Shown here: positions 2,042 to 57,583 of the stretch, piece by piece
Numbering within the stretch: position 1 is the stretch's first letter
How the letters are laid out: each line of letters opens with the position of its first letter
NCBI GenBank assembly: GCA_000961655.1
Contig: LADR01000021.1
Location: 1 to 64,000, forward strand
From: Desulfatitalea sp. BRH_c12
GTDB taxonomy: Bacteria > Desulfobacterota > Desulfobacteria > Desulfobacterales > Desulfosarcinaceae
Reading direction: 5' to 3'
DNA: 64,000 bases
Notes under the pieces: generated by a model
The model's database searches: none
What the model saw: the letters and a program-made list of their open reading frames with translations, nothing else
What the model was told of the DNA's origin: nothing
Program-made: the position numbers and the translations under genes

Positions 2042-2051
2042 AACTACTATC
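2042..2051. repeat. Target-site duplication, left of MITE copy 1
   Basis: AACTACTATC, repeated exactly at 2165-2174 on the other side of the element. Confidence 0.65.
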
Positions 2052-2164
2052 TGGGTTATCCACTTCGGACAAGTGAGATACGGCGTGGGTGCCGCAGAAA
2101 ACCCCCGGTGATCCGGGTCAATCCCGAAAACGCCAATAGTCACTGGAGCAACTGGATAACCAAA
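2052..2164. mobile_element. MITE-like inverted-repeat element, copy 1 (113 bp)
   Basis: The left end (TGGGTTATCCACTTCGGACA, then AGTGA) and the reverse complement of the right end (TTTGGTTATCCAGTTGCTCC, then AGTGA) form imperfect terminal inverted repeats of about 25 bp. The element is flanked by an exact 10-bp direct repeat, AACTACTATC (2042-2051 and 2165-2174), as expected of a target-site duplication. No coding capacity. Copies 2 to 4 lie near 9.0, 32.3 and 38.1 kb. The transposase that mobilises it is not identifiable here. Confidence 0.7.
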
Positions 2165-2174
2165 AACTACTATC
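2165..2174. repeat. Target-site duplication, right of MITE copy 1
   Basis: AACTACTATC, identical to 2042-2051. Confidence 0.65.
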
Positions 2175-2349
2175 ATGCGACTTTGTGTAATGAACTGCAT
2201 GACGGGATGCGTTCACGCAAAGACGCGCAGCTATAGACGACAACCTTCTATTGCAACATCACCTTTATCTTCAGCACCCCGACCCCGCTGTAATTCGAAG
2301 CCCTGTGGTGAATCACCATTCGAAAAGTTAGGCGATAATACTCAATATC

Positions 2350-2477
2350 TTTTAGGATTGGGGCAGCTATCATACCTTCTGGCGTTGGCTTCAGAAAATT
2401 CGAACCTACAGGGCCGTGGTCGCGAGAACCTGGTCGACTGCATCGAGGCCGATGAGTTTTATTTGGGTGGCCAATAA
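2350..2477 (+). pseudogene. Decayed IS1595-type transposase fragment
   Basis: Two frames together give a fragment resembling the middle of an IS1595-family DDE transposase. In one frame (about 2364-2420) SYHTFWRWLQKIRTYRA matches the helix before the first catalytic Asp. After a frameshift the other frame reads ENLVDCIEADEFYLGGQ, where IEADEFYLGG is the typical first-Asp motif. A stop follows at once, and no N-terminal zinc ribbon or later catalytic residues are seen. It is therefore a remnant, not a working gene. The open frame starting at 2175 is a chance extension of it. Confidence 0.45.
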
Positions 2478-2554
2478 AGCGGCAAGCAGCTTGCGGGTGT
2501 CATGCATAATTGCTCCTGCTGCTTAATGTTTCAGCATGACTTCCTGAGCAAAGC

Positions 2555-8335: not shown

Positions 8336-8985
8336 TTTAATTTTTCTGCCTATCCATGGTGTGGGTGAGTCGGAGAAGTCTTTCATTTGCCGACTTCTCC
8401 TTTGGGAGATTTTCGATTCCGATTCCGATCTTATACTCATGGATTGGCTGCTTTGCTGTCAAGTATAATTATATATAATTCTATTTATTTAGTCCTTATT
8501 GTGGTAAGATTTCCGACACAACAAGATGTTGTGCGTACTTTCTCGATACGATAAGATGCTCTGGACTTTGGACGCCCTCGCGACACCCTGAGGTGACATG
8601 CAGCCAGACCGGGTTTGTCACAAAATGGCCTGCTGCTGTTGTCACGGAAGAGATGTGCATCGTGTGTTTCCTTTGCCAAGGGTACGCTTGTACCGACTGT
8701 TCTTGCCCGGATCTTTTATGTATCGTGCCCACCCGGGCGTTGAATACGTCATCGGTATCCACTGATGCAAACTTTAGGCCGTTTTTTTAGACAGGCGCGA
8801 CTATCAGGAACGACGTCCTGCAAGTGGCGCAATCCTGACTTATCGATAATTAAAGACCACAGATGTATAGAAACGTGTAACAAGCAGGATACATCTGTGG
8901 CACGGTCAAAATTCGGACACTGTCTGAATCCCGTCAGGCTAAAAACATATGTCACCTGCCTGGACGGGCTTTATGATATATAAAT
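8336..8985. promoter_or_regulatory. Divergent intergenic region between the pil operon and the two-component genes
   Basis: No convincing gene in about 650 bases. It holds an AT palindrome, AATTATATATAATT (8467-8480), just upstream of the pil-side leader. There is a tight hairpin CACAACA-AGA-TGTTGTG (8517-8533). There is also a perfect 12-bp inverted repeat, CCACAGATGTAT / ATACATCTGTGG (8857-8868 and 8889-8900). On the minus strand a TTGACA (8457-8462) precedes the HTH gene, but the best -10 match is 21 bases away, so I do not call that promoter. Confidence 0.5.
8857..8900. repeat. Perfect 12-bp inverted repeat with 20-nt loop
   Basis: CCACAGATGTAT (8857-8868) and ATACATCTGTGG (8889-8900) are exact reverse complements, separated by 20 bases. 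No T run follows on either strand, so it is not an obvious terminator. It could be a paired operator or a structured RNA element. Confidence 0.7.
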
Positions 8986-9193
8986 CTGGTTATGCACTTC
9001 GCTCCAGACACAGGTATGAGGTGTCAATAAGAAGGTTACGGTGTCATTTTTAGAACCTTTAACAAAAGCATGCACGTCACAGCGTGCAACATGGGGAGGT
9101 GAGCATGTCAAATCGACAGAATGCCTCTCTTTACACTTTAAACTTTACACTTAACACTTCGCCCATAATCACTGGAGCGGAGTGCATAACCAG
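8986..9193. mobile_element. MITE-like inverted-repeat element, copy 2 (208 bp)
   Basis: The left end CTGGTTATGCACTTCGCTCC and the reverse complement of the right end CTGGTTATGCACTCCGCTCC differ at a single position. The right end continues into AGTGATTATGGG as in copy 3. The interior differs from the other copies and includes a run of GTGTAAA-type heptamers on the minus strand (about 9130-9158). An exact target duplication is not seen (the flanks are AT-rich and only similar). The element lies immediately before the sensor kinase start. Confidence 0.6.
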
Positions 9194-9229
9194 ATAATTT
9201 TTTTTTAAGAACCTGCTCACCGGTGCCCT

Positions 9230-30810: not shown

Positions 30811-30886
30811 TGGCAGGCCAGGAGGGACTCGAACCCCCAGCACCCGGATTTGGAGTCCGGTGCTCTACCATTAGAGCTACTGGCCT
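30811..30886 (-). tRNA. tRNA-Trp (anticodon CCA)
   Basis: The minus strand folds as a cloverleaf: acceptor AGGCCAG / CTGGCCT, D stem GCTC/GAGC, anticodon stem CCGGA/TCCGG with loop CTCCAAA (anticodon CCA), T arm with TTCGAGT, discriminator G and an encoded CCA end. It stands alone, with no other tRNA beside it. Confidence 0.95.
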
Positions 30887-32249: not shown

Positions 32250-32259
32250 ATAACGATTT
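32250..32259. repeat. Target-site duplication, left of MITE copy 3
   Basis: ATAACGATTT, repeated exactly at 32556-32565. Confidence 0.65.
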
Positions 32260-32555
32260 CTGGTGATCCACTTCGGTCAAGTGAGATACAGGTGTGGGGT
32301 GACGTAGGTAGACCCCGGTGATCCGGGTGGGTGGTCCGCGCCACCATCCATTCGATTAAGTGAGGCTATAAGGCATGCTCCGGACGGGCCGCAAACTCGC
32401 TGCGCTCAAACAGTGCGGCCCCATGTCCTGCGCACACCTTATGCCTCACTAAATCTCATGGCTGACGTGGCGCGGACCACCCACCCGGATCACCTCCTCC
32501 GTGCCAATCCCGAATACACTTTGCCCATAATCACTGGAGCGAACTGAATAACCAG
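32260..32555. mobile_element. MITE-like inverted-repeat element, copy 3, with hairpin insert (296 bp)
   Basis: The ends are CTGGTGATCCACTTCGGTCA (then AGTGA) and, on the complement, CTGGTTATTCAGTTCGCTCC (then AGTGA). The flanks are an exact 10-bp repeat ATAACGATTT (32250-32259 and 32556-32565). Compared with copy 1, the shared frame ...CCCCGGTGATCCGGGT / CAATCCCGAA... is interrupted by a long nested palindrome. Confidence 0.72.
32318..32493. repeat. Nested long hairpin inside MITE copy 3
   Basis: The outer arms 32318-32344 and 32467-32493 are a perfect 27-bp inverted repeat. A second, imperfect pair (GTGAGGCTATAAGG near 32360 versus CCTTATGCCTCAC near 32438) lies inside. At the centre GGGCCGCA (32386-32393) pairs with TGCGGCCC (32414-32421). 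Almost the whole 176 bases would fold as one stem. Confidence 0.75.
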
Positions 32556-32565
32556 ATAACGATTT
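32556..32565. repeat. Target-site duplication, right of MITE copy 3
   Basis: ATAACGATTT, identical to 32250-32259. Confidence 0.65.
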
Positions 32566-32582: not shown

Positions 32583-35500
32583 TTACGTGCATTTTTTTGA
32601 TAAAGTGTCAACTTTCCCCAGCAGCTGGCGCTTCAGAAATCGCGCCGTATGCGACTTAGCGCTCTTGGACAGCATTTCGCGGGGGGATCCGCTGGCCACG
32701 ATGCGACCGCCGTCCGCGCCGCCTTCAGGTCCCAGATCGATGATAAAGTCGGCGGCTTTAATGATTTCCATGTTGTGCTCGATGGTCACCACGCTGTGGC
32801 CCTGATCGACCAGGCCCTGCAGCACGTCCAGCAAACGCTGCACGTCCGCCGGATGCAGGCCGGTGGTGGGTTCGTCCAGGATGTACAGAGTGTGCCCGGA
32901 AACGGACGGCTGGGCCATCTCGCGGGCCAGTTTGATACGCTGGGCCTCCCCGCCGGACAAGGTAGGGCTGGGCTGTCCCAGTTGAAGGTAACCCAAACCG
33001 ATATCGCACACAAACTGAACAGCCCGCCGCAGGCGCGGGATGGCTGAAAAGAACTGCACCGCCTCGGCGAAGGTCATCGCCAGCACCTCGGCCATGGTCT
33101 TGCCTTTGTACCGCACCGCCAGGGTCTCGGCGTTAAAGCGCGCCCCGCCGCACACGTCGCAAGGCACGTAGACATCCGGCAGAAAAGCCATCTCCACTTT
33201 GGGCCGGCCCTGGCCCTTGCAAGCCGGACAGCGACCGGCTTCCACATTGAAGGAAAACCGCGCGGCCGAATAGGCGCGCGCGCGCGCTTCCGGAACCTGG
33301 GCAAAGAGGTTGCGGATATCGGTCAGGAAGCCGACATACGAAGCCGGCACCGAGCGCGGGGTGCGCCCGATGGGCGTGTGGTCTACCTCCAACACGCGGG
33401 CCAGGCCTTCCCAACCGGTCATGTCGCGGCAAAAGCCGGCATTGCCGATGTTCCCTTTGCGGCGCAAACGCTGCTGCAATCCTGTGTACAAGGTGGCTTT
33501 GACCAGGCTCGATTTGCCCGAACCGCTCACGCCCGTCACGCACACCAGGCGATTGAGCGGCAGGCGCACATCGATGTACTTCAGATTGTTGGCCGCCGCG
33601 CCCACGATGGTCAGCGCCGGTTGACGCCGATACGGTCGCAGGCGGCTGTTGATATCGGAGCGGCCGCCGTCCAGCAAGGCGCCGGTCACCGAGGCCGGCG
33701 CTTTGCGCAGATCTTCCAGGCTACCCACGGCGACCACTTGGCCGCCATTGGCGCCGGCGCCCGGCCCCAGGTCGATCACCGTGTCGGCCGCGCGGATGGT
33801 TTCTTCATCGTGCTCGACCACAATGACGGTGTTTCCGCGGTCACGCAGTTCGCGCAAGGCGTCGACCAGGATATGGTTGTCACGGGCATGCAGACCGATG
33901 GTTGGCTCGTCGAGAATATAGGTCACGCCGGTCAAATTGGAGCCCAACTGGGCCGCCAGCCGCACACGCTGCGCCTCGCCGCCCGACAGGGTCTCGCCTG
34001 AACGGGACAGGGCCAGGTAGCCCAGTCCCAGCCGGTTCATCAACGCCAGGCGGGTGGTCAATTCAGTGACGATCGGTTCGGCCAGCGGCTGCTGATGCGC
34101 GGAAAACGCCATGCCCGACAAAGTCGTTTGCAGCACTGCGGCCGGTTGGCTGACCAGATCCCAGATGGTGCGGCCCTGCACCGTAACCGCCAGGGCAGCC
34201 TTTTTCAGACGGCTGCCCTGGCATTGCGGACAGATCGCCGCCTGTTCGGAATCGTCGTGCTCGCCCACGCCGACCACGCCCAGACCGTCGCAACGCTCGC
34301 AGGCGCCCTGGGGCGAATTGAAGGAGAACAGACGCGGATCACCTTGGGTCGCGCCGATCCCGCAGGAGGGACAGCGGCCGTGCACGCTGAAAACATCTTC
34401 GCTGCCGGTGTCCTTGTCCAACACGAACAGGCTGCCGTCCCCCTCTTTGAGGGCTTCGGCCACCAAGTCCGCCAGACGCGCGCCGGCCCCTTTGCCGCGC
34501 GGTGTTTCCCCGATCACCAGGTCGATGGCGTGGGCCTTAAAACGGCTCAAGGCCATGTCGGGTTCGAGCGCGACCAGGCTGCCATCGATACGCGCTTGCG
34601 TGTAGCCCATCTTGCGCGCGCGCGCCAGGACATCCTTGTGAAACCCCTTGCGGCCGGCCACTTTGGGCGCCAGAAGCAGCGCCTTGCGGCGACCATAGCG
34701 CGCAACAATTTGATCCTGCAACGCGCCGGCGCTCTGGCGCGTCAGCGGACGACCGCAGCCCGGGCAATGGGGTGCGCCCAGCTTGGAAAAAAGCAGGCGC
34801 ATGAAATGGTAGATTTCAGTCAGCGTGGCCACTGTGGAGCGCCGGCTGGTGTGGCTGATACGCTGCTCGATGGCCACTGTGGGCGACAACCCACTGACCA
34901 GGTCCACCTCCGGGCGCTCCAGAATTTTCATGTACTGGCGCACAAACGGCGCCAAGCTCTCCAGGTAACGCCGCTGGCCTTCGGCAAAGATGATGTCGAA
35001 AGCCAGGGTCGATTTACCCGAGCCGCTCACGCCGGTCAGCACCACCAGCTGATTGTGCGGCAGGGACACGTTCACATCCTTGAGGTTGTGCTCGCGCGCG
35101 CCGCGCACATGGATGGCGCGGCCGTTGTCGCCACCAGGCGCTGGCGCATAAACCGCCGGGGCCTCGCCGACGACGGCGGTACCGTCCAGATAGGGCTTGA
35201 GAAAACGGCCCGTGTGCGAAGCATCCTCAGCGGCGATCGTTTCGGGCGGTCCGGCTGCCACCACCCGGCCGCCGCCGTCGCCGCCCTCCGGCCCCAGGTC
35301 GATGACCCAGTCGGCCGCCTTGATCACATCCAGGTTGTGCTCGATCACCAGGACCGTATTGCCCTCGTCAACCAGGCGCTGCAGCACGTCCATCAATATG
35401 GCAATGTCCTGGAAATGCAGACCGGTGGTCGGCTCATCGAAGATCAGCAGGCGCTCCCGGCTGCCTTCGCCCAGATAGCGCGACAATTTCAGGCGTTGGG

Positions 35501-37913
35501 CTTCGCCACCCGAAAAGGTCGAAATGGGCTGCCCCAGGCGCAGGTAGCCCAACCCCACGTCGGCCAACGGCCCCAGCGCCGAACGGATGCGCGGCTGATC
35601 GGCAAAGAACGCCAGACCCTGATCGACCGTCATGGTGAGCATGTCGTCGATGCTGCGCCCCTGGTAAGTTACTTCCAGCACTTCCGGTTTGAACCGCCGC
35701 CCCTGGCAATCGGGACAAGAGATCAGCACATCCGAAAGAAACTGCATCTCGACCACTTCGAACCCTTCGCCCTTGCAGGTATCGCAGCGACCGCCGTCTA
35801 CATTGAAGGAGAAGAAGCCGGGACCGAAGCCTTTGGCCCGGGCCATCTCGGTATCCGCCAGCAGTTTGCGGATCGGGTCCAGGGCTTTGGTATAGGTCAG
35901 CACATTGGCCCGCGGCGTGCGGCCGATCGGCCGCTGGTCGACCAGGTCCACAGCGGCGATGCGCTCGGCGCCATCAATGGCGCGGAAGCGTCCCGGCCGC
36001 CCCTCGCCCTCGCCCTGCAGCCGCTTGAGCCCCTTGTAAAGAATCTCTTCGGCCAAGGTGGATTTGCCGGAGCCGCTCACGCCCGTCAGGCAGACCAGCA
36101 GCCCCAACGGCACGCGCACATCGATGTTGGCCAGATTATGTTCGGCCGCGCCGCGCACGCTGAGCCAGTGCCCACGCCGGGCCTTGCGGCGCTGCGCGGG
36201 CATGGGAAGTTGCAGCGCTCCGGACAGATATCTTCCAGTCAACGATTCGTTGGCCTGGCCGGCTGGACCGAAGTACATGACCTGGCCGCCCTGCTCGCCG
36301 GCCCCGGGCCCCAGGTCGAGCAGATAGTCGGCCGCCCGGATGATGGCCGGATCATGCTCGACCACCACGATCGTGTTGGGCAAATCGCGCAAGCGCCGCA
36401 GAATGTGAATCAGGCGCTCGTTGTCGCGCGGATGCAAACCGATGCTGGGCTCGTCAAGGACATAGAGCGTGTTGACCAACGATGCCCCCAGGGCCGAGGC
36501 CAGAGCCACGCGCTGCACCTCGCCGCCGGACAAGGTGCGCGACTGGCGGTCCAGGGTCAAGTAGCCCAGCCCGACGTCCGTGAGAAAACGCAGCCTTCCT
36601 AAAATCTCATCGAGCACCAACTGGGTGGCCTCATCCCAGCCCTTGTGGTCCAATGCGCTGAAAAAAGCCACCGCCTGGTCCACGTTGAGCGCGTAGAGGT
36701 CGGCGATCGACTGGCCCTCGATGCGGTACAGCAGCGTTTCGGGCTTAAACCGCGCCCCAGCGCAGTCCGGGCACACATCGTAGCTGCGGTAACGCGACAG
36801 GAAAACCCGCACGTGCATTTTGTAGGTGCGGGCCTCCAGCCACTTGAAGTAGCCGCGCAGGCCGTAAAAGTCCGGCGTGCCCTCGATGATCGCCTGGCGC
36901 TGCGCCTCGGTCAATGCCGCGAACGGTCGGTCCAGCGGGATGCGATGGCGGCGGCAAAAATCGCTTAAATCGCGGTACTCGAAGCGGCCCTCCGCCTCGC
37001 TGCCGAAGGGTTTGATGGCGCCCTGGGCCAGGGAGCGTCCCGGGTCGGGAATGATCAGGTCCAAGTCCATGTCGATCACCCGGCCGAAGCCGCGACAGGT
37101 ATCGCAAGCGCCAAGCGGGCTGTTGAAAGAAAACAGATTGGGCAGGGGCGCTGCATAGTCGATGTCGCAGTGGGCGCAGTGCAGGCGGTTGGAGAAGGCC
37201 AGGCAATCGCCGTCGTCCAGCCACACATCCACCTGACCGCGGCCGAGCCGTTGGGCCATCTCCAGCGAATCGACCACGCGCTGCCGCTGATCGGTTTTCA
37301 CCAGCGCACGGTCGGCCACAACGTCCCAGGTGCCGTCGGCGGCATCATCCGCCAGATCGTTCAAATCGCGCACGTGCCGGTCCAACCAAATCCGGTCATA
37401 GCCCAGACGCAGCAGTTCACGCCGGGCCGCCGCCGCATCCTCGTTCAGTGCATACGGAAACGTGATCACCACGCGGCCCCCGTCGGCGGCCTGGCGCAGG
37501 CTGCGCCAGATCTGCTCGGGCGCATCGGGCTGGACCGGCCGCCCGCAGCCGCTGCAGTGCAGCACCCCCTGGCGCGCAAAAAGCAGCTTCACATAATCGG
37601 TCAGTTCAGTCATCGTGCCGACGCTGGAACGCGATGTGCGGACCGGATCTTTGCGGTCGATGGCAATGGCCGGCGGAACCCCCAGAATCTGTTCGGCCAC
37701 CGGGCGGTCCATGCGGTCCATGAACTGGCGGGCGTACGGTGAAAAAGTTTCGACGTAGCGTCTTTGGCCTTCGGCATATAATGTATCGAATGCCAGCGAC
37801 GATTTGCCCGAACCGCTCACGCCCGTGACAACGGTCATGCGGTTCAGGGGTATATCCAGATCAAGCCCTTTCAGATTGTTCTGCCGGGCGCCGCGAATAC
37901 GAATGCTCTCCAT
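32583..37913 (-). CDS. uvrA: Double-length excinuclease UvrA (two UvrA units in tandem)
   Basis: A 1776-residue protein, nearly twice the usual 940 or so. It has four ABC nucleotide-binding sites, each with a GVSGSGKS(S/T)L Walker A (about residues 35, 611, 961 and 1459). The signatures are [24 protein letters not shown] and LSGGEAQR (about 461, 803, 1309 and 1651). Each half keeps the UvrA zinc modules ([15 protein letters not shown] and [15 protein letters not shown]) and the UvrB-binding-type region. UvrA works as a dimer in DNA damage recognition, so this is a covalent dimer. The halves are not identical, so one site may be specialised. ATG 37913 is preferred over TTG 37943. There is no uvrB or uvrC nearby. 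Confidence 0.95.
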
Positions 37914-38200
37914 GCTCAAATCGATCCTGCGCGATAGTTCCAAAGAAAAACGTGCCTCCTGGTCAAGTCATCAACAATGCCTTCACCATTGCAAACAGCC
38001 AATATATGACAGAATCCGCGAATGACACCTTGGGCAGGCAGCATTCGCAAGCGGTCTACCGCGGGCGACTGTCGCCCTCGCGAAGCATGGATCGGCGCAA
38101 TGGCACGCCGGCGAGCTTACACTTCGCCATAATCACTTGAGCGGAGTGCATAACAAGAAATGGGAATTATAACAGAAAAGGTGGGTGGGATGGTGTCGGA
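37914..38200. repeat. Intergenic region with a solo MITE end
   Basis: No gene seen. Bases about 38111-38156 (ACACTTCGCCATAATCACTT, GAGCGGAGTGCATAAC) match the right end of MITE copy 2, but no matching left end is present, so this is a truncated or solo end (copy 4). Confidence 0.5.
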
Positions 38201-44751: not shown

Positions 44752-44886
44752 AGTGTAAAGTGTAAAGTTTTAAGTGTAAAGAAAGGTATCCTGCCGATTG
44801 TACTGCCACAACATATCTTTGTGAATATTTCCAACAAATATTACGCGTGTTTTTCTTTACACTTTACACTTATCACTTAACACTTA
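44752..44886. repeat. Heptamer repeats in inverted arrangement
   Basis: GTGTAAA units at about 44753-44783 and their complements (TTTACAC) at about 44852-44885 face each other across about 70 bases between livF and the universal stress gene. They may form a stem. Confidence 0.5.
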
Positions 44887-57228: not shown

Positions 57229-57583
57229 GGGGGCGAAACGGCTTCGACGGGGACAAAGAAGTGCTGGTTGCATACCGAGTGCTCATCGGCTCGTTAACTC
57301 GATGGGAAATAAACATAATCGCAGACGATTATAACTACGCCGTAGCCGCTTAGGCGGCTGCCGTCCTGCCGATTCACCTCCTGCGGATTCGGTAAGGGCG
57401 TCGACTAGCAGGATCAGTTCATACCCAATGCCTGTTAAGGTATGGATGAAATTTTAGCAGGCTAGCGGTTCCAGCCTCTCGCCCGATGGAGCCTCGAACC
57501 GCGAAATTAATCATCGGGACATGTATGTAGACGCCAGTGCGGAATGTTTTCGGACGCGGGTTCAACTCCCGCCGCCTCCACCA
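57229..57583 (+). ncRNA. ssrA: Transfer-messenger RNA (tmRNA)
   Basis: A 355-nt tmRNA. The 5' end GGGGGCGAAACGGCTTCGAC and 3' end CGCCTCCACCA make the tRNA-like acceptor arm, with the CCA encoded. The T arm GGGTTCAACTCCC is visible. The tag frame is 57321-57353, encoding ADDYNYAVAA followed by TAG; the tail AVAA is the expected protease signal. The adjoining integrase gene shows that the 3' end is a phage-type attachment site; the tmRNA end is kept intact. Confidence 0.96.
57560..57583. other. Likely attachment site of the integrated element
   Basis: The T-arm/acceptor end of ssrA, with the integrase gene starting its 3' side 95 bases away. ssrA 3' ends are frequent sites for tyrosine recombinases. 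The matching attR lies outside the window, so the exact core cannot be defined. Confidence 0.45.

Follow-up and report, generated by a model that had tools for sequence, protein, structure and literature searches.

Elements with Common Ends in the Window

The window considered here, namely the whole stretch of 64,000 nucleotides from Desulfatitalea sp. BRH_c12 (contig LADR01000021.1, positions 1 to 64,000), contains three elements with common ends and a solo end of the same family. The three elements lie within 1-2 bp of the positions given in an earlier note, which had described them as copies sharing inverted-repeat ends from the sequence alone. The features are as follows (coordinates refer to the window).

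2042..2049, no strand: left 8-bp target duplication of copy 1, AACTACTA (register from paired copies)
2050..2164, plus strand: copy 1, short type B mini-element of 115 bp, with one additional G at its left end
2165..2172, no strand: right 8-bp target duplication of copy 1, AACTACTA
8985..9194, plus strand: copy 2, type A mini-element of 210 bp, duplication lost
32251..32258, no strand: left 8-bp target duplication of copy 3, TAACGATT
32259..32556, plus strand: copy 3, long type B mini-element of 298 bp with a palindromic centre
32318..32495, no strand: palindromic central module of copy 3
32557..32564, no strand: right 8-bp target duplication of copy 3, TAACGATT
38118..38157, plus strand: solo right end of the same family (end-pattern match at 38133-38155)

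When the terminal inverted repeats are compared without gaps, 22 of the 25 end bases are identical in copy 2 and 20 of 25 in copy 3; for copy 1, the figure of 15 of 25 says little, given the additional G and a right boundary placed one base off. The right-end pattern finds six matches in the window at up to three mismatches, versus a mean of 0.02 in shuffled sequence; five of them belong to the three elements and the sixth is the solo end at 38133-38155, absent from the list of the earlier note, for which no left partner was found. Copy 2 has no recognisable duplication, its flanks TATATAAA and TAATTTTT differing at five of eight positions. No open reading frame (ORF) of at least 100 codons is present inside the window copies and no conserved coding was seen in the mini-elements, in agreement with the earlier view of a non-autonomous family. 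Copy 1 begins 20 bp past the stop codon of ORF 1163-2029, and 26 bp separate the end of copy 3 from the stop of ORF 32583-37943.

Three other features of the window were recorded. Adjoining copy 1, positions 2337-2528 hold a fragment of another transposase of the IS1595 family, in decayed form (39-43% identity), for which a Pfam search of the fragment alone gave no match. Between two ORFs, a low-complexity segment of 32 bp (44854-44885) resembles the CACTTTA-rich portion of type A interiors at 91% identity, a likeness that may be due to chance. Rfam models matched one tmRNA (57229-57583, plus strand) and one tRNA (30814-30886, minus strand) and nothing else in the window.

Copy Number and Anatomy of the Family

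The genome of the organism (6.0 Mb in 91 contigs) contains 322 ends at up to three mismatches, versus one for the reversed pattern used as control. Since one copy yields at most two ends, these correspond to at least 161 copies or remnants, and the genome search with the ends that the earlier note had proposed thus returned further copies in plenty. On some contigs (C2, C32), the sequence breaks off no more than a few hundred bases from a type A interior, and additional copies may therefore be absent from the assembly.

Pairing of the ends was carried out automatically, with up to five mismatches per end, in 884,386 bases of the organism's own sequence, a non-random sample consisting of the window and 80 stretches picked around matches. 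It produced 68 pairs corresponding to mini-elements, 99-448 bp long, and 69 pairs when the insertion sequence (IS) described below is included. A few of these pairs may be due to chance, because the reversed pattern yields 49 ends in the same sample versus 287 real ones at up to five mismatches (7 versus 216 at up to four); the pair at 33836-34158 of the window, with five mismatches at both ends and lying within a long ORF, is such a chance pair. Of the 216 ends found at up to four mismatches (control 7), 88 remain unpaired.

Two types of interior are enclosed by these ends. The type A interior is about 200 bp long, whereas type B elements can be as short as 115 bp (copy 1) or as long as 298 bp (copy 3), and a palindromic centre of 178 bp marks the long form. 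Hybrids are evident in the alignment, with the left half of type B joined to the right half of type A in L097 4870, L100, L105 and L107, while in L111 and L087 both sides carry a left end of type B. The presence of two interior types together with their hybrids indicates that the interior is replaceable. The central module of copy 3 recurs at about 40 places in the genome, the scoring covering 40 of 250 candidates; of the 17 places within retrieved sequence, four have family ends on both sides, nine on one side and four on neither (within 130 bp), so that the module may also occur alone. Type A was considered as a coding gene, which is not supported, its apparent ATG being ATA in many copies. 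Tandem interiors are found at two places, with a period of 311 and 332 bp; those at L092 9167-9933 and L119 8350-9060 also bear palindromes of the GGTGGGCATTGCCCACC type, possibly a second, nested repeat family.

Genomic Placement and Distribution among Relatives

The insertions avoid genes. After removal of the element in silico, an open frame of 60 codons or more extends on both sides at 4 of 66 sites, compared with 1,276 of 2,000 positions drawn at random from the same sequence (three of the 69 pairs, near the ends of their stretches, were omitted). The four intragenic candidates are the chance pair of the window, L105 (intergenic on inspection), L249 and L129. L130, also considered as an intragenic insertion, proved to be intergenic when inspected.

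Ends with up to one mismatch number 203 in the organism's own genome, versus 3, 2 and 1 in three of ten genus-mates and none in the other seven; any match at this level is found in 7 of 97 genomes, own included. The type A core, searched with up to three mismatches, has 69 occurrences in the organism's own genome and none in any of 59 relatives. G007 has what appears, by eye, to be a solo end of the IS with its subterminal part. Beyond the genus, a metagenome-assembled genome (MAG), L063, carries a mini-element of 102 bp whose ends are the same and whose duplication, ATCTGAAA, is exact. The end type is thus spread over the group, but the burst is private to the present organism among the genomes searched. 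Four contigs of one Desulfobacterales MAG (L065, L066, L067 and L068) end about 25-90 bp from an end of this kind, which suggests that it also has a multi-copy element.

At the locus of copy 2, paired ends are present in none of the six aligned genus-mates (of ten found at that gene); solo end-like matches occur elsewhere in the corresponding gap of G008 and G002 (one each, four mismatches) and G001 (one, six mismatches), the other three having none. The intergenic sequence at this locus is too diverged and yielded no base-exact empty site, and no usable alignment spans both flanks at the loci of copies 1 and 3. The joined flanks of 71 initial pairs, compared with all retrieved sequence, gave no clean empty site; the matches across the junction fall in the same places only, at side-by-side copies or repeat edges. 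A search of plasmids with one type A copy gave no match, and none of the viral contigs has the end pattern.

These data bear on whether the host now makes use of the repeats at the RNA or DNA level (for instance as terminators, mRNA stabilisers or binding sites), so that selection keeps them, a situation comparable to that of some ERIC or REP repeats. Their intergenic placement, the vicinity of copies 1 and 3 to ORF stops and the strong RNA folding of copies 2 and 3 relative to shuffled sequences (z of -8.4 and -12.5, respectively) are in line with such a role. However, inverted repeats fold well trivially and copy 1 reaches a z of just -1.9, while the intergenic bias would also follow from selection against gene disruption combined with an AT-rich target. 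Moreover, the family is nearly absent from the genus-mates and the apparent start codon of type A is not conserved. We consequently regard host use as improbable.

Target Duplication and Target Site

The target duplication of the family is 8 bp long. In the 8-bp register, 19 of the 69 paired copies have exact duplications and 16 further copies have one mismatch; left flanks compared with the right flanks of other copies give 0.17% exact matches and 0.52% with one mismatch, namely 0.68% at up to one mismatch versus 35 of 69 for the true pairs. The other 34 pairs have no duplication at this level. The 8-bp duplications bear out the earlier claim that these are transposed elements with inverted repeats and target duplications. 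The 35 good copies have A or T at target positions 1, 2, 7 and 8 in 34, 33, 35 and 34 cases, respectively, in a sample with 55.2% G+C, and the target preference is WWNNNNWW.

The earlier note had reported exact flanking repeats of 10 bp. The repeats AACTACTATC (copy 1) and ATAACGATTT (copy 3) are literally present in the sequence, but the register of the paired copies assigns one or two of the letters to the element itself. Column identity between the flanks is 0.62-0.74 within the 8 bp, falls to 0.52 and 0.51 at the two neighbouring columns and does not exceed 0.38 further out; the two neighbours correspond to the T and A at the termini of the element itself, adjoining AT-rich flanks, which accounts for the earlier reading. 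A target duplication of 10 bp is rejected, since the best 10-bp register has 5 exact cases of 69 versus 19 at 8 bp. It could still be argued from these five cases, from the 10-letter repeats of copies 1 and 3 and from one copy that matches over 11 letters in another register (none does over 12) that another transposase, so far unseen, drives the family and makes 10-bp duplications. Considering the predominance of exact 8-bp cases, the drop of column identity outside them and the presence in the same genome of an IS with identical ends and an 8-bp duplication, this idea is hardly credible.

The IS1595-Family Element Bounded by the Same Ends

An element of this kind was reached by scanning genome contigs with the end pattern, which returned eight stretches. 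In Desulfosarcina widdelii (NZ_AP021875.1, L064), the same ends enclose an element of 1,089 bp, which is flanked by the duplication TAACTGAA and contains a gene of 335 codons, the product of which matches PF12762, PF12760 and NF033547 (IS1595 family transposase). When this protein is searched in the genome of Desulfatitalea sp. BRH_c12, five matches are obtained, of which only that on contig C48 is uninterrupted; the others are partial (C83, C10) or weak (C74 and window 2337-2528). The full-length element with a transposase between the same ends, which the earlier note had recommended looking for, is thus in the genome itself: an IS of 1,094 bp (G000:C48:106557-107650) bounded by the ends of the family and by the 8-bp duplication TATTGAAA, in which the transposase gene (C48:106666-107616) is uninterrupted and its product 84% identical to the D. 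widdelii protein. The C48 protein has the DDE_Tnp_IS1595 domain (PF12762, E 1.9e-30) and the zinc ribbon (PF12760, E 1.2e-11). Four zinc-ribbon Cys together with D151, D218, H252, K259 and E281 are invariant in all five aligned transposases. Its frame is free of stops, and the C48 element is the likely driver of the family.

In the mini-elements and the C48 IS alike, TCTGGTTATGCACTTCGCTCCAGTGA and its inverse form the terminal inverted repeats. The ends of L077, L096 and L098, the best mini-elements, are identical to those of the IS over 24-27 bp; for copy 2 of the window, identity is 100% over 23 bp and 96% over 27 bp. Past about 22-40 bp at the ends, mini-element and IS do not align. Hence no interior derived from the IS by deletion, a common but not required feature of MITEs, was found, the ends alone being alignable.

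Recent Movement and Neighbouring Copies

Three type A copies, each 202 bp long and identical to one another, are flanked by exact duplications that differ from copy to copy (TAACACAA, AATTTTTT and TAAATATA), which indicates recent movement. Although hybrids, tandem interiors and unpaired ends do exist, identical copies within different exact duplications, and ends identical to those of an IS with an uninterrupted transposase, leave scarcely any room for an immobile palindromic repeat amplified by recombination alone.

Two elements lie side by side, sharing one 8-bp target, at three places. On C26 (L096 4719-4920 and 4929-5141) two elements have TAACACAA before, between and after them, and the same arrangement is formed on C34 (L104 4841-5053 and 5062-5190) by two elements with AATTACAA. 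On C48 (L113 6359-7651) a mini-element is followed by the IS, the successive flanks being TCTTGAAA, TATTGAAA and TATTGAAA. A genome-wide search for a left end shortly after a right end gives eight matches at six distinct places, versus none in the control. By analogy, the transposase may re-use the edge of a resident copy, as is known for IS30 and IS911; alternatively, these could be tandem pairs that moved.

Interpretation and Relationship to Known Elements

The results of our analysis, obtained by sequence comparison, indicate with a probability of about 95% that the elements are MITEs of a single family and that an IS1595-family transposase mobilises them in trans. The enzyme would act on any segment lying between two such ends; this segment would be inserted into an AT-edged intergenic target of the form WWNNNNWW, and the 8-bp stagger would be copied on each side of the insert. 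A single uninterrupted IS stands against no fewer than 161 copies or remnants of mini-elements, and this ratio suggests that the mini-elements are more successful substrates than the IS.

IS1595-family MITEs, as well as MITE families of similar or higher copy number, are already known from the literature. The family is described as having zinc-ribbon and DDE_Tnp_IS1595 domains, one transposase gene and, usually, 8-bp duplications (PMC8101967); the C48 partner shares all these features, whereas the window elements lack a transposase. Table 4 of PMC3852290 includes a MITE of ISHwa6 (IS1595 family) from Haloquadratum walsbyi, with a length of 165 bp, IR of 25, DR of 8 and seven copies. It resembles the present family in its IS1595-family partner and in the size of IR and DR, but its host is archaeal and its copies are just seven, the comparison being one of description and not of sequence. 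The statement of the earlier note that no published element with these ends was known must thus be qualified, insofar as an IS1595-family MITE of comparable IR and DR size has been published; an IS that already has a name may carry exactly these ends, and our literature search (titles and beginnings of abstracts) found no paper about the present MITE family. IS1595 transposases are common in a Desulfuromonas strain (PMC8235581), the available part of that paper not mentioning MITEs.

Among MITEs of high copy number, Correia elements exceed 120 copies, ERIC reach up to 711 and Chunjie of Geobacter uraniireducens has 38 copies with ends and repeats and 57 partial ones (PMC10969869). These are similarly short, mostly intergenic and variable in length, with terminal inverted repeats and many truncated copies. 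The likeness is again by description and not by sequence, and the text of PMC10969869 does not contain the word IS1595.

What is notable here is the private burst, the interchangeable interiors and the neighbours at the same target. It is conceivable, albeit unlikely, that the IS1595 end pair is a general vehicle homing to its own edges, with interiors (types A and B, hybrids, nested palindromic modules and tandem interiors) being exchanged between copies, new elements settling next to resident ones in the identical 8-bp target and a single uninterrupted IS sustaining a private burst of many unrelated intergenic payloads. The organism offers a clean pair, in which a single uninterrupted IS1595-family element and a large family of non-autonomous elements carry identical ends, and the other members of its genus that were searched are nearly free of this family. 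This makes it a natural system for studying what lets mini-elements outgrow the element that drives them, how their interiors are swapped and whether the transposase favours the edges of resident copies.
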